A DNA stretch of 64,000 bases from Pelobates cultripes (lineage: Eukaryota; Chordata; Amphibia; Anura; Pelobatidae). Position numbers and translations under genes: made by a program. Within the stretch, counting starts at the first letter, position 1. Each line of letters begins with the position of its first letter. This document shows positions 3,585-60,699 of this stretch, piece after piece. The stretch is from NCBI GenBank assembly GCA_933207985.1, contig OW240924.1, positions 71,616,517 through 71,680,516 on the forward strand, read 5' to 3'. The notes below the pieces were generated by a model that saw only the letters and a program-made list of their open reading frames with translations, did not search any database and was not told the DNA's origin.

Positions 3585-6500
3585 GTAAGAAACGTGAAGT
3601 GGCTTGATGACTAACCTTTGGTAACGATGTTAGAAAGACCACACATCCTGTATAGCTACTCAACTTGCGGAACACACTATAATCCATTCATTACTGTTTC
3701 GCAAATCCCACCAAAGCATCCATTCTAAACATATTGATTGATAGACTTCTACAAAATGCACATACAGTGATGTCAAGCTCACTACTATATTGATTCTGTT
3801 GCACAAAACCTCTTTCTAACATTAAAAGGATACTATAGGCACCAAACAACTTTAGTGCATCTTAGTGATATATCCCATGTAGAATGCCATTTATAAACTA
3901 AAACCAAAAAAATTAGACCCAGAGAGATGTAAAAACAAAACTAACTATATCTGAATGTATCTGGTGGGAAAAAAATGAATTGTAGAAAATCTAATAAGTA
4001 TAAGTGAATAACATCGTATTAAATTCCCATCCATCATTTTATTTCCAAGTAACTCAGATTGTAGACGTATAATAATGTATCTGGTGGGAATGTATACAGA
4101 TTGTAGACAGTATCTATAATGTATCTGTAGGAATATATGCAGATTGTAGACATATGATAATGTATCTCTGGGATGTATGCAGATTGTGTACAGTATCAAT
4201 AATGTATCTGGTGGGAATGTATACAGATTGTAGACCGTAACTATAATGCATCTGGTGGGAATGTATGCAGATTGTAGACTGTATCTATAATGTATCTGGT
4301 GGGAATGTATACAGATTGTAGACAGTATCTATAATGTATCTTGTAGGAATATATGCAGATTGTAGACAGTATCTATAATGTATCTGGTGGGAATGTATGC
4401 AGATTGTAGACAGTATCAATAATGTATCTGGTGGGAATGTATACAGATTGTAGACCGTAACTATAATGCATCTGGTGGGAATGTATGCAGATTGTAGACT
4501 GTATCTATAATGTATCTGGTGGGAATGTATACAGATTGTAGACAGTATCTATAATGTATCTTGTAGGAATATATGCAGATTGTAGACAGTATCTATAATG
4601 TATCTGGTGGGAATGTATACAGATTGTAGACAGTATCTATAATGTATCTGGTGGGAATCTATACAGATTGTAGACCGTAACTATAATGTATCTGGTGGGA
4701 ATGTATACAGATTGTAGACCGTATCTATAATGTATCTGGTGGGAATGTATACAGATTGTAGACCGTAACTATAATGTATCTGGTGAGAATGTATGCAGAT
4801 TGTAGACTGTATCTATAATGTATCTGGTGGGAATGTATGCAGATTGTAGACAGTATCTATAATGTATCTGGTGGGAATGTATACAGATTGTAGACCGTAA
4901 CTATAATGTATCTGGTGAGAATGTATGCAGATTGTAGACAGTATCTATAATGTATCTGGTGGGAATGTATACAGATTGTAGACCGTAACTATAATGTATC
5001 TGGTGAGAATGTATGCAGATTGTAGACAGTATCTATAATGTATCTGGTGGGAATGTATACAGATTGTAGACTGTATCTATAATGTATCTGGTGGGAATGT
5101 ATACAGATTGTAGACAGTATCTATAATGTATCTGGTGGGAATGTATACAGATTGTAGACAGTATCTGTAATGTATCTGGTGGGAATGTATACAGATTGTA
5201 GACAGTATCTGTAATGTATCTGGTGGGAATGTATACAGATTGTAGACTGTAACTGTAATGTATCTGGTGAGAATGTATGCAGATTGTAGACAGTATCTAT
5301 AATGTATCTGGTGAGAATGTATACAGATTGTAGACTGTAACTATAATGTATCTGGTGGGAATGTATGCCGATTGTATAATGTATCTGGTGGGAATGTATA
5401 CAGATTGTAGACAGTATCTATAATGTATCTGGTGGGAATGTATACAGATTGTAGACAGTATCTATAATGTATCTGGTGGGAATGTATACAGATTGTAGAC
5501 TGTAACTATCATGTATCTGGGAGAATGTATGCCGATTGTAGATAGTGATCATGTATCTGGTGAGACATATATTAACTGTAAACATGTCTTTCATATTTTA
5601 AAAAAGCGCATATTCAATTATCCAGTAGTTTTTCTGGATTTCTTTATTTTATGCATTTTATGTTCACAACAACTGGTCCCTTCTTATCTGATGATGATAT
5701 AGTAATGTAGCACCATAATGGAACATTTCTTTTAAGACTGGTTTCCTAGATATATGGACTGTTATTCTGTACTGCTTATTTTTATTATTATGGAAACAAA
5801 TTGTCATTTGATGGCTATTCTTGCATTCTATCCCCAGGCAGTTGTATACACATTATGATCAATGCTTTTAAATGGTTTATAAAAAAATACCCCTGTCCAC
5901 CGTGTCTTTGCCAATGAAGCATTTTTTTCTTACAGCTACACAGTGGATGGAAATATGGATTATCTCTTGATGAAAATACTAAAACTCACCCACTTTTGCG
6001 ACCTTATAAGACACTGTCTGAAAAGGTTAGTGTGGTAGTCTTCGTTAAACAAACATTATTTGAATTGATTAATTCACTGGCAAAAAGTCATATGTAATAT
6101 TTTTTGTTCTCCAGTGGAACCCTGTAATTCCGTTACCAAATCTACATATACCAGCATCTGTAGGCTGCACTTTGCACTTTAGTTCTTTAGTGGTCATAGT
6201 ACCCACAAAATATGAATAAATTAAACCTCTATGTAAAATGTTCTGACGACTAGTAGTAGCAATTACGTATTTAACGTTTACACGTACCGTGCATACCACG
6301 TGAATGGATTTACAAGGAAAAGTTATTTGTTTTTTTAAGATCTTGTATATTACTGATCCCTTTTAACATCTGAAATCTAAAATGAATTTCAAAGCGATGC
6401 ATTACCCATGTTTAATGCTGTGGCACCTAAATATTTAGTCACTTGTATGAAGCAGCTGCAATTTATCATCATGTATGAGAGTCTTTTTTAAAAAAACTTT

Positions 6501-47300: not shown

Positions 47301-50300
47301 CTGTCTACAGCTGCATGTCTACTGGGGGACACCTAGTTTCAGCACATATAATGTGTCTTTTTAAAATGTAAGTGGACTTGTAGGGAGATAATGACAAGGT
47401 CCCTTGGCCAGTGTCCTCTGTGCCTAGTCAGCATCTTATACTTGATAACAGAGCTACAGGAACAGTTAAGGGTGTAAAACCTAGTGCTGTCCCAGCTCTT
47501 CCAGTGTCTGAGTGTCACGTATCTGTGGCTGGGCAGTAAGTAGAAGATTTATTTCCATCTGCCCCTTAAGCCTCCCAAATAGAAAGTGCTTTGCAGGAGG
47601 GGCAAGGACAGCACTGAGTGATGCACACTGTATAACAGCCACTGCAGTTCTTCTATCAATCATAGAAGGGTACCTTGACTGCTGAAGACGTAGGAGGATG
47701 AGTACTGTGGAAATTTAGCCTTCAAACTTCACATGTAGAAATTTTTAATTGTATTTTTTATTTTTTATTTTCTGGACATTTTTTTGGCCTGTAATGGCAG
47801 GTAACACAATTATTAATCTCACTATCTACTCTAGGGGGCTGTTACAATATCTAGTGACCCAACACGCAGAGTAAATATGTGATAATAGATTAGACAACAT
47901 CTTTAGAATGGCCGGGTTATATGTTGTTAGAACAAGAATGGTCAGGGACAAGCCGAGTCAGAGAAGCCAGAAATCAGGGAAGCGAAAAACCAATAGCCGA
48001 GTCAGGAAAAACTGAACGGAGATTAGTCAGGAGAAAGCCAAGATCAAAATACCAAAATAGACACAGAAAACAGAAACCACAACAGAGCAATGACTAGCAC
48101 CCTAAATGTTCTTTATATAGTCTATGCCTTTAATTGGTAGCCATTTGAATTTGAAAGTTTTGGCAGGTCGTGATGTCATTAGCATCATGACATTGGCACA
48201 CACGCGCCGCGTCATAAAAGGGGGCGGAGCCACAGCACCCAGCATCGGAACTGCTGGTGAGATGAGAGGGACCGTGAGAATTGTCCCTCTCCCTTTCACG
48301 GACCTCCCCAAACTGTGTATCTGCCTGGGCAACATAAGGTAATGTGACAGGGGCACACTAGAATTATGAATTGCGTGCCTACAGGTGTCCAACAAGTAAA
48401 TCCGACCCTGTCACGAAGTGTGTATTATGTCCTAATTCAGCTGTCCAATTCACCAAGTCTCAGTGTTTTATTTACTAAACTGGGAAACATGGGTCATTGA
48501 CAAGGGAATTGCAAATATTAAACCAACCAGTGGGTTTTATTCTTTTTATATATATATATATATATTTAAGAATGGAGTATTCTCAATGTTTACCATCTAT
48601 GGCAGGCTTTATACCCTAAAACCTTTTTGATTTTTCTTGTATCTTCCTCAATGATTGTCTAGTGAATCACGCTTCTACCTTTACTATTAAGCTGCTGGAC
48701 ATTAGTCTGCATTATCACGTCTGGAAACATTTATTATGAGGTTCCACTTGAATGCGCTGAAGAGATGATTAGACACTTAACAATCATTCATTTACATGAT
48801 TTCCTTATTTTCTAGTGACTCTGTGACCCATGCTGCATAGTGTTGAAGTGCTGCTCACTTTACCAGCTCTGATTTTGCCTGTCTTTTTGACACACACCTG
48901 GGTCCAATTAATTTGCTGTTCCCTGCTTATGATGTACAAATTACCCTTGATTTCTTTCATTTAAAACTAATTGATGTTTGAGCAGTGTGTAGCTTAAGAA
49001 TGGTCTTGAAGCATGTTAGAGTCGCCATTCGTCCTCCACACTAGAGGCTCTGACCTTGTTGTTTCTCCCTGATTTTTTAGTCGGAAGACCCTGCGGTGAA
49101 GTGGCAGCTTAATCTTTACAAGGATATTCTGAGAAATGAAGAGCAGGATTCGGAAAAGACCGTAGAGCGTGTTCAGAAAATATCTGCAGCAGTCTTTCAC
49201 CTTGAGCAGGTGGGAATCATTTTAACAGCTGTCTCTTCACTTGAATGAATCATGCAAATTGATTTAAAAGGATCCTTAATGTCCAATATGCAGTCTCCTA
49301 GGGTACGTCCTTCGCACCCTAAATGATGGTGCTCACATTTCCCATGATGCGCAACCAACCTAAAAGCTGTTTCAACTTCATGGGTAAATCAGTTCTTTAA
49401 CATGTAGAGAACCAAAGTTTCCTCTTAGTGCTATGCTACATCGTGGGAATTGTGGTCCAAGGAAACTTGAAAACCACAGATATTTTTTAAAGCTACACTA
49501 ATTCTTGTTCCACCAGAAGAAAACTAGAGATGCAAATTATAATTATCATTTCTTTCACACATCTGGAGCTGTAATGATTCTATTTCCCATAGCAACACCA
49601 AAGAAGGCTTAGTCATTTTTTAGATCAGTTTTTAACTTTCATTGACATTCATTTAAGATTCTCGAAGGAATTGCCTATGATAATAAGTCTTACATCAATG
49701 AATTGTATCCCTGGTTTCTATTCATACCTTCAGGTGGAGCAGCCATTGAGATCTAAAAAAGCTGTTTGGCACAAGCTTTTGTCGAAGCAGAGGAAGCGAG
49801 CTGTGGTGGCTTGTTTCCGCATGGCTCCATTGTACAATCTGCCAAGGTTAGACTCCTGAGATGTGTCTTTGTTATTATTTCATTTTTATGCAGTCTGAAG
49901 TCAGTTTGTTGCTGAGAGTTGCCTTGTGTGAATGATCTGTGCTACAGTATAACCATGCAGCATTCTATTTTGTTACCTACGTAGCTTTTGATTGACATTG
50001 CAGTTTGCATTTTGCCATATAAGAAAGCTATCTTTTCCCTAATAACCAACAGACACACTGTGCTAAAATCCTGATTTGCCCATTGGTAAAACTCCAATCA
50101 GAAAGCTATTTATAAAATGTGATGACATTGCAAAGTTCTGAAAGTGGAGTATTTAATGTAATATACAATAAACAGGGGTATATTAAAAAAACTACAGGAT
50201 TTGAGAAGAATTGACTGGGGAATTGCAAATTTTAAGCCAACGTAACTAGGAAAATTGCTGGACGATATACTTTTCCAGTTGACTGTTTTGTACAAAAATT

Positions 50301-53300
50301 AGCAATTGGTATAAATTCTCCACAATCCCCAATTTAGTGAAAAACAGCCAAGTGTCCTTGCTTAATTAATTGGTTTCTATCCCATAACTGTAGTATTTGC
50401 TGTTCAGCACCACTTCTTCATATCTCCTCCTGTGTCCTTTTAGCAATGAAATAAACTTTCCCTCCACCTACTGTTAGCTAACTGACTAAATAGGCTACCC
50501 TTACCAGCTAGATAGATTTGAGTGTTATGGGCTTTGGTATTTTGACAATAAACATAGTCTTAGTTTGTGTCTTTTTAATTTTAATTTGAAGTTTTATTAG
50601 CAACTTGTATAAATGGAAAAATGTAACTACGTTAGTGTTTTTTGGTTTTGCTATTCGTCTTCTTTTTAGAGGAGTTCACTATAATGAGATAAAATAACAT
50701 TTTGTCTAACAATAGTTGAGCGTGATACATTTTAGTCACACAAATATTCTGCTCAAGTGAAGTCTTCTGCAACTAGGCTTCAAAAAGCAATGTCAAAATG
50801 AAGCTCAGTAACACAGCTTGAGATGTTAGTGTGGGTTATTCACCTATTTGGCACTGGACCTGACCCATTATATAAAGCAATATCCAGATGCCAAGCAGTA
50901 TTGATGAGCTGCATTACTTTCAAAATAACATATATCCTCTAGACCACGTATTATGCAGAAGTGGCTAAGAAACTGCAATTGTTTATGGTGAAAATTGAAA
51001 TGATGAAATTTGAGCTTCTTACTAATTTGGTTATTTTGGCGCAAAATTTACATTCCGTGTTTGAAGAACAGCAGTTTGAGGAATAAACCCCTTTGAGTCT
51101 GTCCATTGAATGGGTAGTTAAGCAATATTATGCACAGTTACACATATGCAGGAAAATATTACAAGTTATCATCCCACCTTTACAAAATGTGCATGATTAA
51201 AGTGATCGGTATGCTTACGCCAACACGAGTAGCAGCAGGCTGAGTTTATATTATGTGGCAATGACAAAGATTTTCTAAACGTATTTTATGCATGAGTGTA
51301 TACGTGTGCCATGCATAAATGTGTGCATGCATCATGTATATACATTCCCAGATCTGTGCACAAATAGCATTGCACGTACATATAGAAGATAAGGTTTCAT
51401 GAAGTATCAATTCATAAACTGTTTGTGTTTTCCAGAGTGATCTAAGCATACTATTTTTTTATATCTCAAGATTGTCTGTGCTATATTACAGAGTTCTGAC
51501 TACCTATGAGGACACATAATATATAAATAGCACTTTGTTATTTTATTTTAATGGACCGTTGATTGGAGTGTGTATTTGGTTGGACTTGTTATAGTATGTT
51601 TGCAGCACCTTAAGTGATACATTTGTCATTGTTTGTAGTGATAACAATTAATGGCCTTAATTTAATAAGCTTTCCGAATGATTCATTATTGTTAGAAACA
51701 TTTTCCAAATGATTTATCTTCAAAAATTCCCATAGACTTTAATGGTGACATCTGTAGATTAATCATTTGGAACGTTTTTCTAAAAGTCTTGAATCATTGG
51801 GAATGGTTATAAAGACAAGCCTATGTCCTTTCACCTTTCTTTAAAGAGCAGGGTACTGTGATATTAAAAACATTAACTAAACAATATGCATTCGCTATGC
51901 ACTTACATAGTTTCATAGGCTGAAAAGAGACACGTGACCATCAAGTTCAGCCTTTCTCATAATCTATTTTTTTGCTGTTGATCGAAAAGAAGGCAAAAAA
52001 CACAGTTTGAAGCACTTTCAAATTTTGCAACAAACTTCCTTCTTGACCCCAGAATGGCAGCCAGATTTGGATAAAGAAGCTATTACCCAACAATTTAAAA
52101 ATTACATCCCTGAATATCATGTTTTTGCAAGTATGCATCCAGTTGCTGTTTAAACTTCTGACAGACTTAGACAAAACCACTTCTTCATGTAGTGAATTTC
52201 ACATCCTTATTGTTCTTACTGTAAAAATAAACAAAAAATAACTTTCCTTTACATTGGAGTAAATCTCCTTTCTTCTAGTCTAAACATATGAGCTTGAGTC
52301 CTGTGCATAGTCCGGCTTGTGTCAGATATTTTATAATCAAGAAACAGCCAGGGCTGTTCACCAAACTGTGAATTCCTGGGAACCGAAAACCAAATCCTGA
52401 CAATTCACACTTTTGTGGATAACCCAATGTATGTTAAAATATAAATCTCTATGGTACTACAGAACGTCTGCAAAAACACATGTAAACTCGTGTGTTACCA
52501 CGCTTTTACCAACAACAGTGAAAGGGTCAATTCTTGAATGTCAAAAGCTCTAGATGTGCATTATGTTCTCTGGCAATTGGTTAATCTGTAGCTGTTTCTG
52601 CTGTTGGTTAAAGTGAATGCTGTACAATATGAATGTGCAATTGCTATTACACATTAAATGCATATGAGAGTGATAACCTTCTGTCTTTTTTTTTTTTTAC
52701 TCTTTCTTTCTTTGCATCAGCCTATTCTTATTCTTTGTATGTGCCAGGATAAGAATACAATGTGTTTTTGAGTCAAGTTCAATGCCAATACTTTCTATCT
52801 TTTTTTTTTTTTAACTTCTATTTGAAAATGATTTATTGTTGTGATGTTTTTTGTTGACTTTTTTTATTTTTGTGCTGCTGGTGCTTGAATAAAAACCTAT
52901 ATGCTTTTCTTCAGACACAAAATTAACAATTTCTTCCTGAGCTCCTACCAACGCATTTGGCTGGAAAAAGTACATGAGAACTCAGACTATGACAGTCTAA
53001 TACTCGTGTTAACGGTAATGTAACTTGTGGCTAAACCTGTCCTTGTGCACACAAGTACTCCACCCCAGCCATGATGTGGTGTATTCATTGGCTTGTACAA
53101 TTTTTCTAAGAGATTCTGATTGGTCAGAAATTAGCATATTTCAAAACCTTGGGTACTTCTACTGGAAATCCTGTTACTATTGTTTGTAGACATCACGTAT
53201 GAACATTGTAGAAGATCAAAAATGAGAGGTCTTAAAATGTAATTGACTCATTTTACGATCCATCAAAAGGTTAGGCCTCCGTGGAAATTCTTCACTAATT

Positions 53301-56300
53301 TGTTTGTATTTGGTACAAGTTCCTAACCAGCAGTTGCGGATCACTTTAAAGTGTTATCAGCATAACACAGTGTATTTGCCTTTGTAGCAGTGCCTGCATT
53401 TCTAAATTCTTGCTCTCTGTTTCATTGAACCACGTAGGTTTATATCCTCATCAGACATGAAAAACGTTCTTGATGTTCCGTGAAATGATTTCACACTTTG
53501 ATGCTGGTGGGAAAATGCTTGCTATAATTGCTATTCTATTTTATTATCAATCTCACCCTAATGAAAAAAAAAATATATTTCTCATTGACTAAATACACTG
53601 ATCATGCGGAGTGTTTGGACTGCCATGATATGGGAAACATTGTGCTTAATTTTGTTCTGACCAATCAAGATATCCAAATTGTACAAGATTCCAAAATCCA
53701 AACTAATCATGAGTCACCTGAACTTTTTTTTTTTTTTAATGTTCTTTTGTACCCCTCTTGATCCCACTTTCACCTCCTGCCAGGCACCGTTCTATTAACC
53801 TCTTCCTCCATGGTTATCTGAAACTCTGGATAGAAACAGAGGAAAATTCCTTTGAGGAGAAACTAATTCAGGATTTGGCTGTAAGTACGGGATTAGCTGG
53901 AGTTTGGCACAGATCGCAAATAAATAATTACTACAGCTTATGTACTGCTTCTAAAGAGACATCTAAAAATGAGCAATGCTTCTTACACAGTTTTTAAACA
54001 TGGCCCAAATTTCCCTTTAATTGCAAATGGTTCAAATGTGTCCTGGCAACAGAATGACCATCGACGGTGATTAATTGAAACAATTAGTTTAGTGCAGAGT
54101 ATTACGCATGGTTAAGAGAGCCAAGTTTTGAAATCATAGTAATTTTATTAGGTTCCTTAGACAGATTTATTAATTAAGCTGATTGTGTTCTAAATGTTAA
54201 AGTAGCTAATTGGTTTATTTAGGATGTAAAGTTAATAAGCCAATTCTGAGAATCCTCAACACATCTTAACTGTTAACATGGCTTAGAAGCTGCAGATCAT
54301 GAATTTAGGAACCCTCTAAAACACGAAATTTGAAGTAATATTCTAAATGCCAATAGAACACTGCTGGTATTTTTTGTAATTGCTTGTACCAGGTGCATGA
54401 TTACAGATATTTATTTTTTCTTCTTTTCCGAGTTGGATTCTTAAAAAGAAATGATGGCCTAAAAGACTAGTGTATTTAAGCAACCTGGCATTTCCTTCTT
54501 AGTGTATTCAAATACATGTTAAAAAACAAACAAAAAAAAACAGTTCCTTACTGAAGAAAAAGTTTCAAAATTATATAACACAAATTCAATTATTTGATTA
54601 CATTTATTTTGGGTAACACAGATTTGGAGGAAGAATAACTTTTGGCATTTATGATAGACAATAAAAGGAACAGATTGTAAGTTCTGAAGGACACTAAACA
54701 CATAATAAATATGATGTTCTTAAGGGCTATTTTCTGTTGTTTGCCTGTTCATGACACAGATTAAGGCCTGGACAGTAATATAATTTGGTAATTATAAAAT
54801 AAACGCAATAATTTTCTACGTCGAAAAAAACCAAAACTGCTTAGGAGAAAATGTGATTCATCCAATACAGAGAGCTAGAAAAATCTAACAAACTAATTGC
54901 AGTCGATTTCTACAGCTTATTAAGGCACTATAAGCTGTACGTTGGACTGTCTGTTCCAGCTGAATTTGACTTCGCTCCATATGATTCATGTTAACCTCCA
55001 TTTGCCTCTATTATGACTATGGACCTGTTCTCGGCTAAACGTTGTTTGGCTGGTGGGACATGCATTTACGTGTGAGTGAAAACGCTAGCAACATTATAGT
55101 TGTTGGCATACTCCATACAAAACAAATCACACCTGCTACTATACTGCATTCAAGCACATTTTAAGTCTTGCCAGTTTTCCCCCTGAACAGCAAATGTTCA
55201 GTTATGGCAAGGCTTAAAATGCCATTTTAAACAGTTTCCACCACTTCATTGACACTGATTCAAGGGGATTTACATACTGGAATGTCCCTTGAACTCATCT
55301 TGCCAGTCTGTATACTGAAAGCCTTGTTTACTTATTTAAGACACATCGTGGCTAGGTTCAGAAATGCAGTTTATTACAAAGAAAATAGTGGTCACAAAAC
55401 TTGCTTTTGAAACATATTAGAATGTTTCTAAGTTCCACTCTAGGAGGTATTGGATACCAGCTAGTGGTAAGCGAGTGTGAAGTGGATAAGTACCTCTGAT
55501 TACACCAATCTCTCTTCTTCTACTCCCTCATTCATAAATGCTATTCATTATTAAAAATCCATGCCATAACCTAAAGGAACCGCACCTAATTTCACGTAAA
55601 CATCGGTTGTTCTGAAGGACCACCAAATCCAAAGTGGTATAGCAGCAAACAAGAAGATCTTCAAGGCACTAGCATTGTTCAAGCCACGGGCTGGTTTATT
55701 GGATCAAAGTGGTAGAGCAACGTTTCGACTTACTGTGTGGTCTTTGTCAAGCTTGACAAAGACCTCACAATAGGTCAAAATGTTGCTCTGTCACTTTGAT
55801 CCAATCAATATTTTTTTTTTTAAAGTCTAAAATTTTCTCTCTAAATATATATTAGGATTTCAATTTTACGTTGCCACTGAAATCCCCCTCTCATGCTGCA
55901 ATTACACACTACAGAGTGATCACAAAGCAGTCTCTACTGTGTGAGTGAGGAGATCCCTCTATGAATCAGTACTGATGTCAGCAGAGGGAGTCCATGTGAG
56001 GTGGGATTAGGAACCGGGGTATGAGTTGGATTAGGGTAGTAGGATTATTCATAGAATATTGAGTAGGATTGTGGGTTGGATTAGGGCAAAAGGTATACAT
56101 GTAGGGTAACATTGTACTTGACAACAGTAGCAGAACACAATTATGGGCTGTTTAAAATATTGTGTCTGTGAATTTCCCAGAAATAAAACAGAAAAAATGA
56201 AACATTTTGACTGAGGATTATTATAATGTGGCTAAATGATAAGTTAAATTGTATATGTTTTGCATTATTCAGCATTGTGTTTTGATTGCTCTTAGTCAAA

Positions 56301-59300: not shown

Positions 59301-60699
59301 GGAGAAAAAAACTGAGATTTTAGAAATATGTATTTTAGGAATTATTATTACCTTTATAACAACTCAAGGACATTTAACAAAATAAGTGGAGCACATACTA
59401 TAATGTAAAGCTTCCTTACAATTTCCATTTGTGTAATGTTAAATGGCACCGTTTTGTTAAGGTTTGGTTTAGAAATTCATGATAGCCTGGAGCAGGCTGG
59501 TAATGTTGCAGAAGATTTTTGAAAAAGTCAAATGGAATTTGTGACCAGCTTCTGAGTTTCATGTTTACCTCTACTTCTTGAACTACACAGTGAAATTGTT
59601 AAATTATCATCCGGACACAGTGTATGTTTCAGAAATTGTTGCTTTAAATGCTTTTTTGGGTGGAGTTAAAAACAAAAAAGTTAACGACTTTTGTAGTTTG
59701 GCTTTGGATTTTATTTGAGTTTGTTTTCACTCAAGTAAAGAAATATAGAATATAAGATATGGGATATAGCATATGTATATCGGAGGCATTGTACATAGCT
59801 GTCCAACATAGTTGTTTCAAAATAAAACCTTTTTTTTTACCCTTTTTAACTGAATACCACTGATGGCAATATTTGGTACTTGAAATGCTAGTGAAATACA
59901 TATTTTTTCCCCATATTGAGGTATAGTAAAGTGTAACACTGTGTTTTTAATGCATTATATAGCTATGTAATATTCATCAATATTACGTTAAAATGAAAGC
60001 AAAAATGTCACATATATTTTAAAGTATCCCTTGGTGGATCTGGTCTGCTGCATTTATCCATGTGTCCCACATCTGGACAAGTGCAGTTTCAATAATTCCA
60101 TAAAGTCATTGTACCTGCTCAGTAAACAGATAGCAGTGAGCCATAGCATAGCTGCTATCAGTTCATACTATAGGGACAAAACCAATAATGGAAACCCTGG
60201 GCTAAGTGTTCCAAGTTCAAGCTGTCTTATAGCGACAGCAATTTGTAAAAATTGCTACCTCAATAACCCAATTTCAGAAGTGAGAGTGGGCTCTGAATGC
60301 TCTAAGCTTCATGCAATTTGCAATAATGTAATTAGGCTGACCTTTCTAAGTTAAGCTTAGATGTCCTTAGTACATGTTATTCAAGTAAAGAACCATTTTC
60401 TGTCTAAAAGGGTTCGAGAGCTTTCTGAGATATAGTATAACAATTAATCCTTAGAACTACAGCTCACCCTGTATCAGACAGACATTGGTACACAACTCAA
60501 ACTATCAATCATCTTCCTTGCTGAATGTGCTATAAATAGTTCTATTTTTGTTTCTTTGAAATGCATTGTAAAATCATGTTAATGTCTCCCAGAAACCCAA
60601 GAAAACCGATGAGGAAGAAGAGGAAGAGACGGAAAAGAAACCAGATCCCCTTCACCAGATAATTTTACACTTCAGCCGTAATGCCCTTACTGAGAGGAG
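3506..60699 (+). CDS. RYR3: Ryanodine receptor 3 (partial gene, 25 internal coding exons)
   Basis: RyR3 is a homotetrameric Ca2+-release channel of the endoplasmic/sarcoplasmic reticulum. This window encodes about 961 residues of its large cytosolic part: RyR repeat 3/4, the helical solenoid, the calmodulin-binding segment and the beginning of the central domain. The transmembrane pore and the N-terminal domains lie outside. The exons join in order with matching phases and no stop: 3506-3584, 5936-6025, 11068-11214, 12147-12209, 14803-14878, 15188-15311, 15443-15558, 16060-16127, 16584-16705, 19188-19237, 21239-21299, 22294-22532, 29845-29926, 32937-33067, 35577-35897, 36319-36559, 36656-36743, 38605-38697, 39795-39809, 45588-45758, 46986-47045, 49081-49209, 49734-49846, 52915-53014 or 53784-53880, 60593-60699. 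The paralogue call rests on RyR3-type strings such as [34 protein letters not shown] and [12 protein letters not shown], where RyR1 differs (for example [19 protein letters not shown]). All introns are GT-AG. The gene looks intact here. Confidence 0.95.
3806..3900. mobile_element. Fragment of an AGGCACC-type repeat family
   Basis: AAAAGGATACTATAGGCACC resembles the left end of the elements at 10368 (GGACACTGTAGGC) and 44089 (AAAGGGACACTCCAGGCACC). Only one end is recognisable, so this looks like a truncated copy. Confidence 0.4.
4066..5570. repeat. 44-bp minisatellite (about 34 copies), with 220-bp higher-order unit
   Basis: The unit is AATGTATCTGGTGGGAATGT followed by ATACAGATTGTAGACAGTAT and CTAT. 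Unit starts fall at 4201, 4245 and 4289, spaced exactly 44 bp. Variants include CCGTAACTAT for CAGTATCTAT and GAATATATGC for GAATGTATAC. The first copies (3941-4200) are more diverged and of irregular length. A block of five variants starting at 4201 is repeated at 4421. The array lies in the intron between E1 and E2. Confidence 0.95.
5936..6025 (+). CDS. RYR3: RYR3 exon E2 (RyR repeat 3)
   Basis: 90 nt, 30 codons, phase 0 at both ends. It contains SGWKYG and the RyR-repeat hallmark [15 protein letters not shown]. The acceptor is TTTTCTTACAG and the donor AAG|GTTAGT. Known RyR structures place this repeat pair as a protruding cytosolic domain that carries regulatory phosphorylation sites. Confidence 0.95.
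10368..10794. mobile_element. MITE-like element interrupted by a second MITE
   Basis: The ends GGACACTGTAGGCAGTGT and ATAGTGTCTACAGTGTC (near 10778-10793) are imperfect inverted repeats. An internal 22-bp inverted pair, CATTCAGTGTTAAACCATTT and AAATGGTTTAACACTGAAT, lies at about 10522-10544 and 10711-10732. No coding capacity. The 80-bp element at 10401-10480 sits inside its left part. A non-autonomous DNA transposon is the likely origin; the family is not assigned. Confidence 0.6.
10401..10480. mobile_element. 80-bp MITE with perfect 16-bp inverted ends
   Basis: It starts TTAACCCCTTAAGGAC and ends GTCCTTAAGGGGTTAA, a perfect 16-bp terminal inverted repeat with TTAA at both tips. The interior is partly palindromic (ACATGACATGTGTGACATGT). 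A TTAA tip suggests a target duplication of the piggyBac/Kolobok kind. A truncated relative lies at 32617-32650. From memory, elements with these ends are very common in frog genomes. Confidence 0.85.
11068..11214 (+). CDS. RYR3: RYR3 exon E3 (RyR repeat 3, phosphorylation loop)
   Basis: 147 nt, 49 codons, phase 0 at both ends. It begins [17 protein letters not shown], continues with [13 protein letters not shown] (typical of RyR3) and ends in MRSISQTSQ. That last stretch aligns with the phosphorylation hot spot of RyR1 and RyR2 (the RRISQ/RKISQ loop). The arginine at -3 of the second serine is kept, so a basophilic kinase site is plausible but not shown. The donor is CAG|GTAAAT. Confidence 0.96.
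11270..11770. repeat. Degenerate minisatellite, period about 48 bp
   Basis: Diverged units begin AATACCTCTGTATAGCCAGG (11321), AATATCCATGATTAGCCAAG (11561), AATATCCCTGATTGGCCAGG (11609), AATATCCTTGAATAGCCAAG (11661) and AATATGCCTGATTAGTCAGG (11705). Each is followed by a version of ATGTGTAGC. Spacing is 44-52 bp, and 240 bp between the first two, which fits five units. It lies in the intron after E3 and looks old. Confidence 0.7.
12147..12209 (+). CDS. RYR3: RYR3 exon E4 (linker between RyR repeats 3 and 4)
   Basis: 63 nt, 21 codons, phase 0 at both ends: [20 protein letters not shown]. This matches the RyR3 linker, which has [11 protein letters not shown] where RyR1 has DLSGVTLSREL. The acceptor is TTTTTTCAG and the donor CAG|GTTTGT. 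Confidence 0.95.
12547..12681. repeat. Interspersed repeat copy, uninterrupted
   Basis: From CCGGCGGTTATACAGCGTGG to GTATGTATGCCACTGTA this matches the two halves at 13179-13257 and 14244-14305, including GGCCGCAACACAT, GTCCCCTGGAGTGAC and CGGTCGCAGCTGC. It shows what the second copy looked like before an LTR element split it. The element class is unknown. Confidence 0.75.
12682..12870. repeat. CA-rich microsatellite
   Basis: About 190 bp of ACAC/ATAC repeats (ACACACATACATACAAACAC and variants), directly after the repeat copy ending at 12681. It keeps several frames open on both strands, which explains the tyrosine- and cysteine-rich reading frames there. Confidence 0.9.
12885..13257. repeat. 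GC-rich repeat block; left half of the interrupted copy
   Basis: 12885-13178 is a GC-rich block with the look of transposable-element sequence. 13179-13257 is a diverged second copy of 12547-12620 (CCGGCGGTTAGATGGCACGG, GGCCGCAACACAT, GTCCGCAGGGCGG). It stops at the insertion point of the LTR at 13258 and resumes at 14244. Confidence 0.65.
13258..14243 (+). mobile_element. Solo LTR (986 bp), nested in an older repeat
   Basis: It begins TGTGACAAATGCC and ends GAGCTTTATTACA, so it has TG...CA ends. Flanking 5-mers are GCCAG (13253-13257) and GCCGG (14244-14248), a target-site duplication with one difference. A TATA box (TATAAAAG, 13907-13914) and an ATTAAA signal (13931) give + orientation. 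The outside sequence on both sides matches the uninterrupted copy at 12547-12681, which acts as an empty site. There is no internal region, so it is a solo LTR, probably of a gypsy-like element. Confidence 0.85.
14244..14305. repeat. Right half of the interrupted repeat copy
   Basis: GGGTCCCCTGGAGTGACAGA, CCCGGTCGCAGCTGCGAT and GGTATGTAGTCCACTG match 12620-12681. Directly adjacent to the solo LTR. Confidence 0.8.
14306..14802. other. Intron tail before E5
   Basis: Single-copy-looking AT-rich sequence. No feature that I can name. Confidence 0.5.
14803..14878 (+). CDS. RYR3: RYR3 exon E5 (RyR repeat 4)
   Basis: 76 nt, from phase 0 to one leftover base. It encodes [19 protein letters not shown] followed by MELESK, the conserved start of RyR repeat 4 ([13 protein letters not shown]). 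The acceptor TTCATGAAG has a short pyrimidine tract, but the protein match is unambiguous. The donor is AAG|GTGAGA. Confidence 0.95.
15188..15311 (+). CDS. RYR3: RYR3 exon E6 (RyR repeat 4)
   Basis: 124 nt. Two bases complete a glycine codon and two bases are left at the end. It contains [36 protein letters not shown] and YAISR. The [11 protein letters not shown] string is the repeat-4 equivalent of [10 protein letters not shown] in E2. The acceptor is CTTGTTGCAG and the donor CAG|GTAGAA. Confidence 0.96.
15443..15558 (+). CDS. RYR3: RYR3 exon E7 (start of helical solenoid)
   Basis: 116 nt, with one base in and one base out. It encodes [20 protein letters not shown], then [29 protein letters not shown] and [12 protein letters not shown] are RyR3-type (RyR1 has WMDISQEFIAHL). 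The acceptor is TTAACACTAG and the donor TGG|GTAAGA. Confidence 0.95.
16060..16127 (+). CDS. RYR3: RYR3 exon E8
   Basis: 68 nt. Two bases complete a glutamate codon, then [20 protein letters not shown] and AK follow, ending in phase 0. The motif [13 protein letters not shown] is strongly conserved across RyRs. The acceptor is ATCTCAACAG and the donor AAG|GTGAGC. Confidence 0.94.
16584..16705 (+). CDS. RYR3: RYR3 exon E9
   Basis: 122 nt, from phase 0 to two leftover bases. It contains [20 protein letters not shown], then [15 protein letters not shown]. The join with E10 gives [10 protein letters not shown], whereas human RyR3 as I recall it has [10 protein letters not shown]. The acceptor has a ten-T pyrimidine tract before CAAG and the donor is AAG|GTATGT. 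Confidence 0.95.
16706..19187. other. Intron E9-E10
   Basis: A 2.5-kb AT-rich intron. I see only short A/T runs and a small GATT/GATA repeat near 18885-18906. No element or exon recognised. Confidence 0.5.
19188..19237 (+). CDS. RYR3: RYR3 exon E10 (50 nt)
   Basis: 50 nt, with one base in and one base out: [17 protein letters not shown] short but unmistakable RyR exon. The acceptor has a long pyrimidine tract (CTTCTTCTCTGCTTCAG) and the donor is TTG|GTAAGT. Confidence 0.95.
19238..20495. other. Intron E10-E11, left part
   Basis: AT-rich, with poly-T and poly-A runs. ATACAATGTAAAATATAAA occurs twice (about 20277 and 20389), a local duplication. Nothing else that I can name. Confidence 0.45.
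20496..20766. mobile_element. hAT-type MITE (271 bp)
   Basis: It starts CAGTGGTTCTTAACC and ends GGTTAAGAACCACTG, a perfect 15-bp inverted repeat. It is flanked by TACTAACC (20488-20495) and TATTAACC (20767-20774), an 8-bp target duplication with one difference. The CAG...CTG tips and 8-bp duplication are typical of hAT elements. Non-coding, so non-autonomous. Confidence 0.88.
20775..21238. other. Intron E10-E11, right part
   Basis: 464 bp of AT-rich sequence before E11, without recognisable features. Confidence 0.5.
21239..21299 (+). CDS. RYR3: RYR3 exon E11 (61 nt)
   Basis: 61 nt. Two bases complete the glycine of SLFG and two bases remain. It encodes [19 protein letters not shown], which matches RyR3 ([18 protein letters not shown]) better than RyR1 (TDAPAVVNCLHILARSLD). 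The acceptor is ATCTTTTACAG and the donor ACG|GTAAAT. Confidence 0.95.
21826..21890. repeat. Short interspersed repeat fragment
   Basis: ACATAGTTACATAGTTGGGC, then CTGAAAAGAGAGATAGTCCA and TCAAGTTCAGCCT. The same core, CTGAAAAGAGA...CCATCAAGTTCAGCCT, occurs at 51919-51954. From memory this phrase is widespread in amphibian genomes. The rest of the intron E11-E12 has nothing nameable. Confidence 0.6.
22294..22532 (+). CDS. RYR3: RYR3 exon E12 (239 nt, solenoid)
   Basis: 239 nt, with one base in and one base out; 79 full codons. It contains [59 protein letters not shown] and [15 protein letters not shown]. These strings separate RyR3 from its paralogues and are the strongest single piece of evidence for the paralogue. 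The donor CTTT|GTACGT is followed by a 7.3-kb intron. Confidence 0.97.
23060..23324. repeat. Inverted repeat, arms of about 100 bp
   Basis: The left arm 23060-23160 contains GTGCAGACTATCTGAATTA and ACAGCTGGGGATATGAG. The right arm 23221-23324 carries the complements CTCATATCCCCAGCTGT and TAATTCAGATAGTCTGCAC (with GCTAATTC). The spacer is about 60 bp. The arms end at GCGCTAAAACG and CGTCTTAGTGCGC. A fold-back MITE is the most likely origin. Confidence 0.85.
23985..24088. repeat. TA then GA microsatellite
   Basis: About 80 bp of TA repeats with a few C/G interruptions, followed by about 22 bp of GA repeats. It opens a meaningless frame of alternating tyrosine and isoleucine on the minus strand. 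Confidence 0.95.
27512..27581. mobile_element. Short (70 bp) inverted-end element
   Basis: CAGAGCCGGATTA at the left and TAATCTGGCTCTG at the right are near-perfect inverted repeats of 13 bp. CAG...CTG tips suggest a hAT-type MITE. The flanking 8-mers (GTTTGAAT and GTTGTAAC) match only partly, so the target duplication is unsure. Confidence 0.55.
28480..29138. repeat. Long inverted repeat, arms of about 138 bp
   Basis: The left arm 28480-28617 contains ATAAAGTGCGCTGTGCCTTT, GACAATTAGTGCAATATTGT and ATGAATATACAAA. The right arm 29000-29138 is its near-exact complement (TTTGTATATTCAT, ACAATATTGCACTAATTGTC, GGCACAGTGCACTTTATC). The spacer of about 380 bp is unrelated to the arms. No ORF. It looks like a fold-back DNA transposon. 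Confidence 0.9.
29845..29926 (+). CDS. RYR3: RYR3 exon E13
   Basis: 82 nt, with two bases in and two out. It encodes [20 protein letters not shown] followed by KNIYVE, and the join with E12 reads DLLLDDVQVSC. The acceptor is CTACTTTCAG and the donor AAG|GTACTA. Confidence 0.95.
29927..32936. other. Intron E13-E14
   Basis: 3 kb. The only nameable item is the TTAA-type MITE remnant at 32617-32650. The 128-codon frame at 30387-30773 has no recognisable similarity and no coding signs. Confidence 0.5.
32617..32650. mobile_element. Truncated MITE copy (TTAA family)
   Basis: TTTTATTCCAGAAGTTGTGT followed by AATTAAGGGGTTAA corresponds to the last 36 bp of the MITE at 10401-10480 (TTTTATTCCAGAAGTTTGG...TTAAGGGGTTAA). 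The left part is missing. Confidence 0.65.
32937..33067 (+). CDS. RYR3: RYR3 exon E14
   Basis: 131 nt, with one base in and one out. It contains [35 protein letters not shown] and [20 protein letters not shown] and TKSPRER are conserved in all RyRs; NPLSVFN is RyR3-like. The acceptor is TTTTCCCACAG and the donor GCTA|GTACGT. Confidence 0.95.
33068..35576. other. Intron E14-E15
   Basis: 2.5 kb. At 33301 CCAGTGGTTTTCAACCT resembles one end of the hAT-type MITE at 20496, without a recognisable partner end. There are short TA runs near 34516 and 34680. The block 34930-35220 is GC-richer and may be an old repeat. Confidence 0.45.
35577..35897 (+). CDS. RYR3: RYR3 exon E15 (321 nt, longest in window)
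   Basis: 321 nt, 106 full codons, with two bases in and one out. It contains [79 protein letters not shown] and [12 protein letters not shown]. The [15 protein letters not shown] and [18 protein letters not shown] blocks are diagnostic. The acceptor is CTCTGTTGCAG and the donor CAG|GTTAGT. Confidence 0.97.
35898..36318. other. Intron E15-E16
   Basis: 421 bp without recognisable features. Confidence 0.5.
36319..36559 (+). CDS. RYR3: RYR3 exon E16
   Basis: 241 nt, with two bases in and two out. It contains [39 protein letters not shown], the charged [15 protein letters not shown], and [19 protein letters not shown]. The donor is CAG|GTATCC. The reading frame runs on past the donor with no domain content, so the exon ends at the conserved DNNR junction. 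Confidence 0.97.
36656..36743 (+). CDS. RYR3: RYR3 exon E17
   Basis: 88 nt, with one base in, ending in phase 0: [15 protein letters not shown], then [14 protein letters not shown]. It lies only 96 bp after E16, the shortest intron here. The AG at 36654-36655 (ACAACATAG) is preferred over an upstream TTTCAG at 36615-36620 because it restores DNNRSNWLK. Confidence 0.96.
36833..37024. repeat. Inverted repeat with AACGTTTCGGCACTCTGCTG arm
   Basis: The left arm contains GTGAGCAGTCTTTACTTCAA, AGCAACGTTTCGG and CACTCTGCTG. The right arm, starting about 36934, contains CAGCAGAGTGCC and AATAAAGACTGCTCAC. The two arms are about 88 bp each around a short loop. A related phrase, TTGCCGAAACATTGCAGG, follows at about 37146. 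Probably a MITE-type element. Confidence 0.8.
37025..38032. other. Intron E17-E18, middle part
   Basis: AT-rich sequence. TTTTATAGGTTTTTGAAAGT and TTTTATGATGTCTTGGAAAG, each followed by TTACAGGG, lie about 360 bp apart (37452 and 37816). They mark two diverged copies of one segment (about 37420-37500 and 37780-37860). Confidence 0.5.
38033..38265. repeat. Interspersed repeat (GGCCCATCTAGTCTGCCC family)
   Basis: ACGGCAGATAAGAACCATTT, GGCCCATCTAGTCTGCCCAG, CTGGAAGGCTATTCCATGCA and GTCCTCTTGTTGTGGTAG are phrases I recognise as a very abundant repeat of amphibian genomes. It also resembles, at lower identity, the repeat at 51903-52300. No coding capacity. Confidence 0.75.
38300..38395. repeat. 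CA/TG/TA microsatellite
   Basis: A CA tract of about 30 bp (38300-38329), then a TG-rich stretch and TA repeats. It directly follows the interspersed repeat above. Confidence 0.95.
38605..38697 (+). CDS. RYR3: RYR3 exon E18 (upstream of ASI site)
   Basis: 93 nt, 31 codons, phase 0 at both ends. It contains [20 protein letters not shown], then [11 protein letters not shown]. It ends exactly at the phase-0 junction where vertebrate RyRs carry the optional ASI exon. The acceptor is ACTTGTTCTAG and the donor AAA|GTAAGT. Confidence 0.96.
38698..39794. other. Intron E18-E19 (before the ASI microexon)
   Basis: 1.1 kb without repeats I can name. The part just before the microexon is pyrimidine-rich (ACTTGTCTCCTGCATTTTTC and TTTCACACAG), suitable for regulated recognition of a 15-nt exon. 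Confidence 0.45.
39795..39809 (+). CDS. RYR3: RYR3 ASI-equivalent microexon E19 (15 nt, PIQVK)
   Basis: A 15-nt exon, CCCATACAAGTGAAG, flanked by TTTCTTTCACACAG and GTACAG, phase 0 at both ends. It encodes PIQVK. In human RyR3 the same place reads, from memory, AMQVK, and in RyR1 the five residues of the alternatively spliced ASI exon. Skipping or including it keeps the frame, so it is probably an optional exon here too. It was identified from position, length, phase and the shared QVK ending. Confidence 0.85.
39810..40979. other. Intron E19-E20, left part
   Basis: 1.2 kb with no nameable feature. Near the minisatellite border (40850-40980) there are scattered imperfect copies of CCTGCCTGA and AGCTTGA, possibly the seed region of the array. 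Confidence 0.4.
40980..41750. repeat. Minisatellite A, 29-bp unit (about 26 copies)
   Basis: The unit is CCAATAAGCTTGACATTGAA followed by TAGCCCTGT. AATAGCCCTG recurs at 41341 and 41370, exactly 29 bp apart. Variants alternate AACAAGCTT/AATAAGCTT and CATT/TATT; in 41050-41210 they form 58-bp pairs. Each unit carries one AAGCTT. Because 29 is not a multiple of 3, all three minus-strand frames take part in one long open stretch. Confidence 0.95.
41751..42528. repeat. Minisatellite B, 30-bp unit (about 26 copies)
   Basis: The unit is AAAGCAGCTTGACATTGGAT followed by AGACTTGGTT. It shares AGCTTGACATTG(A/G)ATAG with array A, so B and A are related. The strict 30-bp period keeps a minus-strand frame open with a 10-residue repeat ([10 protein letters not shown]). 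It joins array C without a gap. Confidence 0.95.
42529..42985. repeat. Minisatellite C, 30-bp unit (about 15 copies)
   Basis: The unit is TCCACCTCCATGATCTGGAG followed by ACTAGGCAGG. The first unit reads TTGACATTGGAGACTAGGCA, grafting directly on the last B unit. Sub-types differ at GGTAGG and GGCAAC. Both strands stay open ([10 protein letters not shown] on plus, [10 protein letters not shown] on minus), purely from the 30-bp period. Confidence 0.95.
42986..44088. other. Intron E19-E20 between minisatellite and MITE
   Basis: 1.1 kb of AT-rich, single-copy-looking sequence with no recognised exon or element. Confidence 0.45.
44089..44621. mobile_element. MITE-like element, TTAAAGGGAC ends (533 bp)
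   Basis: It starts TTAAAGGGACACTCCAGGCA and ends TGGCACTGGAGAGTCCCTTT AA, imperfect inverted repeats with TTAA tips. Inside lies a palindrome around TGCAATAATTACATTGCAGG / CCTGCAACTGTAATTATTGC. No transposase frame. Likely a non-autonomous DNA transposon of an anuran family. Confidence 0.8.
44622..45587. other. Intron E19-E20, right part
   Basis: About 1 kb with no repeat recognised. It contains the possible 33-nt microexon at 45060-45092. Confidence 0.4.
45060..45092 (+). CDS. RYR3: Possible 33-nt alternative microexon (weak)
   Basis: An open 33-nt segment follows a good acceptor (TCTGTTTTTATACTTAG) and would end at AAG|GTTGCT, a weak donor. It would encode [11 protein letters not shown] in phase 0/0, so it could be added between E18/E19 and E20 without shifting the frame. 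I know of no RyR counterpart at this place. It resembles the end of E5 ([11 protein letters not shown]), which may be chance. It may simply be intron. Confidence 0.2.
45588..45758 (+). CDS. RYR3: RYR3 exon E20
   Basis: 171 nt, 57 codons, phase 0 at both ends. It contains [39 protein letters not shown] and [18 protein letters not shown]. The basic stretch KRTKRRG follows the ASI site directly. RGDLYS, VAALKK and [14 protein letters not shown] are RyR3-type. The acceptor is GACTCTTCCAG and the donor CTT|GTAAGT. Confidence 0.97.
45844..46292. mobile_element. MITE-like element, TTAAAGGACCACT ends (449 bp)
   Basis: It starts TTAAAGGACCACTATAATGT and ends GCCTAGAGTGGTCCTTTAA, an inverted repeat of about 13 bp with TTAA tips. 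The internal sequence is GC-rich (CCCTGAGGGTGCCCCCACCC). I recognise the family from frog genomes by sight. The small frame inside (46024-46317) is not a gene. Confidence 0.82.
46293..46985. other. Intron E20-E21, right part
   Basis: AT-rich, about 690 bp, nothing recognised. Confidence 0.5.
46986..47045 (+). CDS. RYR3: RYR3 exon E21 (60 nt)
   Basis: 60 nt, 20 codons, phase 0 at both ends: [20 protein letters not shown]. It matches the RyR DTDEEVREHL..NLHLQ block. The acceptor is CTATTTTTACAG and the donor AGG|GTAAGG. Confidence 0.95.
47046..47839. other. Intron E21-E22, left part
   Basis: The stretch 47150-47700 is GC-richer than typical intron here and looks like old transposable-element sequence, but no ends or protein similarity could be defined. 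Confidence 0.4.
47840..48415 (-). mobile_element. Probable solo LTR, minus orientation (about 575 bp)
   Basis: Read on the minus strand it begins near TGACAGGGTCGGATTTACTT (first TG probably mutated to CG) and ends in GATATTGTAACA. A TATA box (CTATATAAAG) lies near 48113-48122. It is followed by pyrimidine-rich leader sequence with repeated CTGACTCGGC and CCTGAC phrases, as in frog gypsy-like LTRs. No target-site duplication was found, so the exact ends are uncertain. Confidence 0.6.
48416..49080. other. Intron E21-E22, right part
   Basis: About 660 bp of AT-rich sequence with a TA run near 48549-48568. Nothing else recognised. Confidence 0.5.
49081..49209 (+). CDS. RYR3: RYR3 exon E22
   Basis: 129 nt, 43 codons, phase 0 at both ends. 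It contains [19 protein letters not shown], then [33 protein letters not shown] and AAVFHLEQ match RyR3 (RyR1 has LRWQMALYR and SAVLYYLDQ). The acceptor is CTGATTTTTTAG and the donor CAG|GTGGGA. Confidence 0.96.
49210..49733. other. Intron E22-E23
   Basis: 524 bp. Phrases such as GTGGGAATTGTGGTCC may belong to a decayed repeat, but it is not definable. Confidence 0.4.
49734..49846 (+). CDS. RYR3: RYR3 exon E23 (calmodulin-binding segment)
   Basis: 113 nt, phase 0 in, two bases out. It reads [20 protein letters not shown], then [17 protein letters not shown]. This is the amphipathic, basic helix known in RyR1 as the calmodulin-binding segment (about residues 3614-3643), where Ca2+-calmodulin and apocalmodulin act on gating. 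It opens the central domain that couples cytosolic changes to the pore. All key positions (W, the K/R cluster, the F/V hydrophobics) are present. The last codon is split AG|A or AG|G, so E24a and E24b both restore arginine. Confidence 0.97.
49847..51902. other. Intron E23-E24a, left part
   Basis: 2 kb of AT-rich sequence without a feature that I can name. Any regulatory elements for the E24a/E24b choice could lie here or in 53015-53783, but none can be called by eye. Confidence 0.4.
51903..52330. repeat. Interspersed repeat (CCATCAAGTTCAGCCT family)
   Basis: ACATAGTTTCATAGGCTGAA, CCATCAAGTTCAGCCTTTCT, TCACATCCTTATTGTTCTTA and TCTAGTCTAAACATATG. It shares its core with 21826-21890 and a similar layout with the repeat at 38033-38265. 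It lies 0.6 kb before E24a. Confidence 0.7.
52915..53014 (+). CDS. RYR3: RYR3 alternative exon E24a (variant paired with E24b)
   Basis: 100 nt, one base in, ending in phase 0. The acceptor is ATGCTTTTCTTCAG|A and the donor ACG|GTAATG. After the arginine shared with E23 it encodes [18 protein letters not shown], then [15 protein letters not shown]. Aligned with E24b it shares H, N, F, L, Y, W, E, E, N, S, L, I and L (about 13 of 32), the pattern of an old exon duplication. Its open frame, same phases and intact sites argue for use in some transcripts. It cannot be spliced together with E24b: the frame would shift to GCA CCG TTC TAT TAA, a stop. I do not recognise this peptide from RyR1, RyR2 or RyR3, but cannot exclude that it is annotated in other species. 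Confidence 0.75.
53015..53783. other. Intron separating E24a and E24b
   Basis: 769 bp, so ordinary steric hindrance cannot explain exclusion of one exon; the frame can. No repeat recognised. The acceptor side of E24b has poly-A, poly-T and CCCCTCTTGATCCCACTTTC tracts. Confidence 0.45.
53784..53880 (+). CDS. RYR3: RYR3 exon E24b (canonical version)
   Basis: 97 nt, one base in, ending in phase 0. The acceptor is CCTCCTGCCAG|G and the donor GCT|GTAAGT. It encodes [19 protein letters not shown], then [13 protein letters not shown], which is close to human RyR3 ([24 protein letters not shown]). It belongs to the first helices after the calmodulin-binding segment. The competing exon E24a lies 769 bp upstream. 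Confidence 0.96.
53881..60592. other. 6.7-kb intron E24b-E25
   Basis: The only definite element is the near-perfect palindrome at 55695-55808. The 169-codon frame at 57958-58467 shows no similarity that I recognise. The regions 54700-55020 and 58980-59310 look less AT-rich and free of repeats; they might be conserved non-coding DNA, but I cannot test this. Confidence 0.4.
55695..55808. repeat. Near-perfect palindrome (about 110 bp)
   Basis: The left arm GGATCAAAGTGGTAGAGCAA, CGTTTCGACTTACTGTG, GGTCTTTGTCAAGC is mirrored by GCTTGACAAAGACCTCACAA, TAGGTCAAAATGTTGCTCTG, TCACTTTGATCC. The centre is at TCAAGCTTGA (about 55751). It shares the CAACGTTTCG motif with the inverted repeat at 36833. No loop beyond the centre. 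Confidence 0.85.
60593..60699 (+). CDS. RYR3: RYR3 exon E25 (acidic stretch and PDPLHQ block)
   Basis: 107 nt, phase 0 in, two bases out. It contains [20 protein letters not shown], then [16 protein letters not shown] run of seven acidic residues broken by one T is followed by the strictly conserved PDPLHQ..L.FSR.ALTE block of RyRs. The acceptor is ATGTCTCCCAG and the donor GAG|GTACCA. The next exon is beyond the window. Confidence 0.96.

Follow-up and report, generated by a model that had tools for sequence, protein, structure and literature searches.

The 64,000-nucleotide (nt) window analysed here, C13:71616517-71680516 of the 3.09-Gb assembly of the frog Pelobates cultripes, holds part of the ryanodine receptor gene RYR3 on the plus strand. 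Downstream of exon 23 (E23), which encodes the calmodulin-binding segment, the gene carries two homologous versions of exon 24, where E24b is the ordinary version and E24a the alternative one. As judged from sequence comparison, the two very probably constitute an ancient, tandem-duplicated and mutually exclusive exon pair, and the swap between them would change the control of the channel. An apparent oddity of one frog becomes in this way a switch spanning vertebrates from bichir and teleosts to mammals, located directly after the calmodulin site of a calcium release channel. The positions of all features are collected in the table near the end of the text.

The choice between the two exons is imposed by the reading frame. 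E24a and E24b have identical phase, and exactly one of the two keeps the frame: in the frame test, the combinations E23-E24a-E25 and E23-E24b-E25 are both open, the inclusion of both exons leads to ...LVLTAPFY*, where the stop follows the fourth E24b codon, and the joining of E23 directly to E25 reaches a stop inside E25. An either/or choice forced by the frame had been claimed in the sequence-only reading, an earlier note made from the letters of the window, and the frame test bears this out. The coordinates, lengths and frames given there for the two exons agree with the frame test and the spliced mapping, and the assignment of the gene to RYR3 and of the exons to a tandem duplication is likewise correct. 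The further statement that both exons have strong splice sites stands for the two acceptors, which take ranks 2 and 4 among the 11 scored in the gene, and does not stand for the donors, which are middling (E24b 7th and E24a 9th of the 12 scored); these scores come from simple weights and not from a trained model. The E23 donor at 49846 reads AAG/gttaga, and the scored E25 donor is gag/gtacca.

The early stops could also be the purpose of the arrangement. In such a case, the pair would act mainly as an expression brake, where co-inclusion or skipping yields early-stop transcripts that are degraded, leaving less RyR3 in some tissues. The consequences of including both exons or neither are consistent with it, but the frame is kept by either exon used singly, and the peptides of the two exons are different and conserved; a mere brake on expression would require neither property. 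The brake is thus an improbable main role. According to the preferred reading of a mutually exclusive pair, the spliceosome would pick one exon by tissue or stage, and the transcripts with both or neither exon would meet the early stop and presumably be removed by nonsense-mediated decay.

The identity of the gene is indicated by the exons around the pair. Outside E24a, 756 of 781 residues in the mapped exon parts match the RYR3 of Ascaphus truei, a figure that is biased upward, since the parts were picked from exact-match runs; the identity of the window RYR3 to those of Hyla, Spea and Eleutherodactylus is 97.2-97.3%. When the open frame around E24a was searched against proteins, the single match was the ryanodine receptor 3 isoform X3 of A. 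truei, to which the E24a peptide is identical in 34/34 residues. This identity is not rare by itself, because the other exon parts are already nearly as similar. Within the assembly, the searches with the E24a DNA and with the E24a peptide matched only this place on C13. The peptide joined through E24b, in turn, matches RyR1 and RyR2 chains in PDB, and the length and phase of E24b equal those of E24 of the P. cultripes RyR1.

The homology of the two exons is visible in their peptides, which are identical at 14 of 33 aligned residues; the codon positions agree in 20/33 cases for the first, 21/33 for the second and 8/33 for the third position. The third positions are near chance and the first two are not, so both exons have been kept coding since the duplication, with the silent sites saturated, and the comparison shows protein-level constraint on E24a. 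The stretch from the E23 donor to the E24b acceptor contains 10 open AG...GT candidates that measure 85-115 nt and have the right phase. When scored against E24b, E24a reaches 60, a 3′-shortened E24a ending at 53005 reaches 56, and the next candidate reaches -5; the best of 30 shuffles in two-base blocks scores 19, and E24a as a chance exon is rejected on this basis. A further copy of E24 was not found 3′ of E24b, where the best candidate scores 8, inside the shuffle range. The search for a second exon pair in the window led to its rejection as well, as only E24 has a standout intronic relative (expectation value, E, of 2e-4) among the mapped exon parts. One other intronic hit below 0.02, at 5984 (E 0.01), is taken as an internal RyR domain repeat and not as an exon pair.

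The distribution of the two exon types was followed in the best 120 of 1945 relatives found with an E23-E25 query and the best 120 of 1948 found with a b-type query, in a library clustered at 90%. The merged lists comprise 208 RYR3 proteins of 104 species, all of which can be assigned clearly to type a or b by the segment that follows E23 (the smallest score margin is 41). Among these listed matches, 88 proteins are a-type and 120 are b-type; the a-type is present in 47 of the 104 species, the b-type in 69, and both types in 12. With such lists and clustering, a species without an a-row is no evidence of absence. The search thus recovers E24a peptides in RYR3 of many other vertebrates: the carriers are Ascaphus, bichir, many teleosts, lizards, crocodilians, birds, and marsupials including opossums, and across this range, from bichir and teleosts to marsupials, the peptide keeps an open frame and can be aligned. 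Seven annotated isoform pairs, mostly predicted models, are letter-for-letter identical except for E24. They belong to 4 of the 12 both-type species (two pigeons, zebra finch and alligator), and both members of each pair are listed on equal-sized contigs.

The sequence-only reading did not know the variant from mammalian RyRs, and one may ask whether E24a is a recent variant specific to frogs. All 17 placental rows among the listed matches, from 14 species, are b-type, as such an origin would suggest. These rows are, however, cluster representatives, one of which stands for 1117 sequences, and therefore a-isoforms can hide behind them. A frog-specific novelty is refuted by the orthologous a-type peptides of marsupials, birds, crocodilians, lizards, bichir and teleosts, together with a placental-like chain in PDB, 9c1e, and it is now hardly conceivable. 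The view that the variant is unknown in mammals is not supported either, given the marsupial peptides, the 9c1e chain and the presence of RYR3 on a published list of exon swaps from the human gene set.

The 9c1e chain was found by comparing the E24a peptide with all PDB chain sequences. There is one distinct match, 9c1e_B (also 9c1f), named ryanodine receptor 3, to which residues 1-33 of the P. cultripes E24a align at E 1e-9. The b-type query matches 42 distinct PDB sequences, nearly all of them RyR1 or RyR2, in a search that shows the residue letters for the best few matches only; 3 of the 42 are short calmodulin-site peptides not reaching E24. Compared with cattle RYR3, the 9c1e chain is identical in 219/227 residues outside E24 and in 12/34 inside. 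The near-complete RyR3 of 9c1e and 9c1f is a placental-like RyR3 carrying E24a, similar to the P. cultripes form and different from it at the exon end. This RyR3 is presumably of mink origin and from a complementary DNA clone, and both entries are presumably linked to Chen et al. 2024 (Nat Commun 15:8630), a paper cited in PMC12627627.

Since 9c1e alone matches E24a and the b-type matches are nearly all RyR1 or RyR2, structural comparisons of the isoforms mix the gene with the exon choice. This calls for caution: the near-complete solved RyR3 is the E24a form, and the contrasts between RyR3 and RyR1 or RyR2 may partly reflect the choice of exon. It is a tentative possibility that some of the gating described as specific to RyR3 is due to the splice form instead of the gene, and that an old vertebrate switch, by a swap in the shell-core linker, tunes how calmodulin and Ca2+ control store release.

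Several observations weigh against an ancient, mutually exclusive pair. Among the 7 amphibian species listed, an a-row is present only in Ascaphus, and the placental rows are exclusively b-type; the 90% clustering and the best-120 lists could explain both of these gaps. Eight of the 12 both-type species gave no pair identical outside E24, the a and b types of teleosts could stem from two genes, and most isoforms in the database come from automatic gene prediction. In one of the 208 proteins, an automatic whitefish model, the two exons directly follow each other. With 769 nt, the intron between E24a and E24b is long enough that the exclusivity is unlikely to result from simple crowding. Finally, E24a evolves faster and is less constrained, with a mean pairwise identity of 0.61 vs 0.85 for E24b and only 4 invariant columns over 39 distinct a peptides, and its placental copy has a changed end, LIPILM instead of LILVLT.

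The faster evolution, together with the middling donor of E24a, agrees with the view of a dead or dying duplicate exon, which is picked by gene predictors and rarely used by cells. Against this view, the peptide has stayed open and alignable over the whole range from bichir and teleosts to marsupials, 10 columns are invariant in 9 chosen E24a peptides, the exon is identical in two frogs, and it is present in the RyR3 sequence of 9c1e. A dying exon is thus highly doubtful, and the reading of a maintained exon pair is preferred.

Two observations concern the fish sequences. The whitefish model, the RYR3 of Coregonus suidteri (P0075), runs E24a into E24b through ...LTVM, and the junction looks as if the E24a donor began GTNATG, like gtaatg in P. 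cultripes. The model is likely an annotation error, which shows both exons adjacent in a salmonid. In some teleosts (P0104, P0109, P0115-P0119) there is a second, diverged class of E24a (NNYFLNGY...VWLE...FDRLFS), which possibly comes from a duplicated teleost RYR3 gene.

The position of the pair in the protein suggests what the swap would do. The RyR1 peptide of PDB 2bcx matches query residues 1-27, which leaves two residues (LP) between the end of the calmodulin peptide and the split arginine opening E24. By alignment, the swapped 33/34 residues correspond to RyR1 about 3646-3678, which on RyR1 domain maps cover the last part of the shell-core linker and the first part of the core solenoid. 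The E24a types contain on average 3.5 acidic residues vs 5.8 in E24b, and their mean net charge is +0.7 vs -1.9 (39 and 29 distinct peptides in both comparisons), the window copies having 0 and -2. The mean hydrophobicity of the last eight residues is 0.95 in E24a vs -0.10 in E24b (38 and 29 distinct peptides). The suggestion that E24a is less acidic and has a more hydrophobic end therefore holds as an average over the distinct a and b peptides.

The calmodulin helix itself is common to both forms and would remain unchanged. As the segment lies, according to the RyR1 domain maps, where the shell-core linker ends and the core solenoid starts, the coupling to the core is the likeliest target. 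The swap would most likely alter the coupling of calmodulin binding and of the cytosolic shell to the Ca2+-gated core, and RyR3 channels of differing sensitivity would result. When human RYR3 variants that fall in the exon pair are interpreted, both forms would need to be considered.

The available part of the work by Martinez-Gomez et al. (2022, PMC9741552) names RYR3 as one of the gene families in which tandem-duplicated exons substitute for one another in vertebrates, arthropods and nematodes, based on a curated human set, and lists it alongside fly Ryr and nematode unc-68. Similarly to the E24 pair, the events described there involve adjacent homologous exons of which one is used at a time, and they are of old origin. 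The main text, in that part, names RYR3 once and without specifying the exon; we infer that the event would be the E24a/E24b pair, and the pair is filed as already known in annotation. In the open-licence literature, a scope that leaves most subscription papers outside, no functional study of the pair was found, and the peptide words had no match in the text of open-licence papers. The main text of a paper on the human landscape of mutually exclusive splicing is without any word beginning RYR or ryanodine, and the available parts of a glioma exon paper and of a nematode unc-68 paper do not mention the E24 exon.

Other splicing events of ryanodine receptors are described in the available portions of further papers. 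The mutually exclusive exons a/b of insect RyR (IASI) correspond to residues 1136-1168 in the rice leaffolder (PMC3342285, PMC6026295). They offer an either/or choice comparable to that of the E24 pair, in a member of the same gene family and over a segment of similar size (33 residues), and their use depends on the stage; they belong, however, to the second SPRY domain, well away from the calmodulin site, and are taken as an event independent of the E24 pair. The calmodulin-site region also appears alternatively spliced in some insects (PMC6026295). Two further RyR3 splice variants, AS-8a and turkey AS-81 (PMC13215552, PMC3342285), lack 29 and 27 residues, respectively; like the E24 pair they belong to the alternative splicing of RYR3, but no exon is swapped at the calmodulin site; the AS-8a deletion spans a predicted membrane helix and has a reported effect on channel behaviour.

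The elements that could direct the exon choice, a TCTT cluster and an inverted repeat, are regulatory leads only. In the 300 nt upstream of E24a, TCTT occurs 8 times vs 1.7 expected, uncorrected for the 8 motifs and 6 stretches scanned. Upstream of both exons the word YGCY is in excess as well (8 and 7 occurrences vs 2.6 expected), so the scan of splicing-factor words points to nothing specific. Rfam gave 6 matches around the exons at E up to 1, all below the gathering scores. The inverted repeat spans most of the intron between E24a and E24b, and no other copy of it was found inside the window.

An example of exon choice set by such an element is FGFR2 IIIb/IIIc, where a conserved intronic stem is located between the exons and its disruption changes the choice. 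An RNA stem acting in the same manner in the E24a-E24b intron would agree with the arm score of 33, which 0 of 500 dinucleotide shuffles reach (highest 31), and with the co-folding of the arms with their flanks at -50.7 kcal/mol. The margin over the shuffles is small, however, the whole intron folds ordinarily (z -1.1, with 3/20 shuffles as good), and the arms could be the ends of a small mobile element, which makes this mechanism rather unlikely for the mutually exclusive pair.

The origin of the pair was considered with the other RyR genes of the assembly, where a RyR1-like locus is present on C9 (11.80-11.83 Mb). Its E24 is b-type, with 97 nt and the same phase, and an a-like exon was not found in the flanking introns of 221 and ~645 nt. 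E24a may have arisen in RYR3 or been kept only by it, RyR1 of the same genome being the gene tested. In a tree of the 33-34 residues, E24a separates from RYR3 E24b, RyR1 and RyR2 with a local support of 1.0; with 33 residues, too few to date the duplication relative to the RyR1/2/3 split, the tree gives the split of a from the rest only. According to the simplest reading, the duplication of E24 in RYR3 would predate the common ancestor of ray-finned fishes and tetrapods. Four RyR probes (E23, E24, a central stretch and the carboxy terminus) match RYR3 on C13 (71.6-71.8 Mb) and the C9 gene. A RyR2 gene was not detected in the assembly with these four probes; it may truly be lost, be missing from the assembly or lie beyond the reach of the search. 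Three weaker loci matched by RyR probes are perhaps IP3 receptors.

Table. Features of the RYR3 exon 24 region, in window coordinates
Feature	Position	Strand	Description and basis
E23 of RYR3	49734..49846	+	Calmodulin-binding segment, ends in split arginine codon (AG/); spliced mapping of Ascaphus RYR3
Pyrimidine-rich stretch 5′ of E24a	52684..52735	+	6 of the 8 TCTT words counted in the 300 nt upstream of E24a; candidate PTB-type site
E24a, alternative exon	52915..53014 (100 nt)	+	Encodes (R) + 33 residues; frame test, Ascaphus isoform X3, PDB 9c1e_B match, splice scores
Inverted repeat, left arm, E24a-E24b intron	53092..53129 (38 nt)	+	Candidate RNA stem; arm score
Inverted repeat, right arm, E24a-E24b intron	53655..53687 (33 nt)	+	Candidate RNA stem; arm score
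E24b, canonical exon	53784..53880 (97 nt)	+	Encodes (R) + 32 residues; frame test
E25 of RYR3, common downstream exon	60593..60699	+	Start mapped; end inferred from the next Ascaphus RYR3 residues

Apart from the exons, the window contains a tandem array at 4055-5546, composed of ~30 copies of a 44-nt unit with a 91% match.

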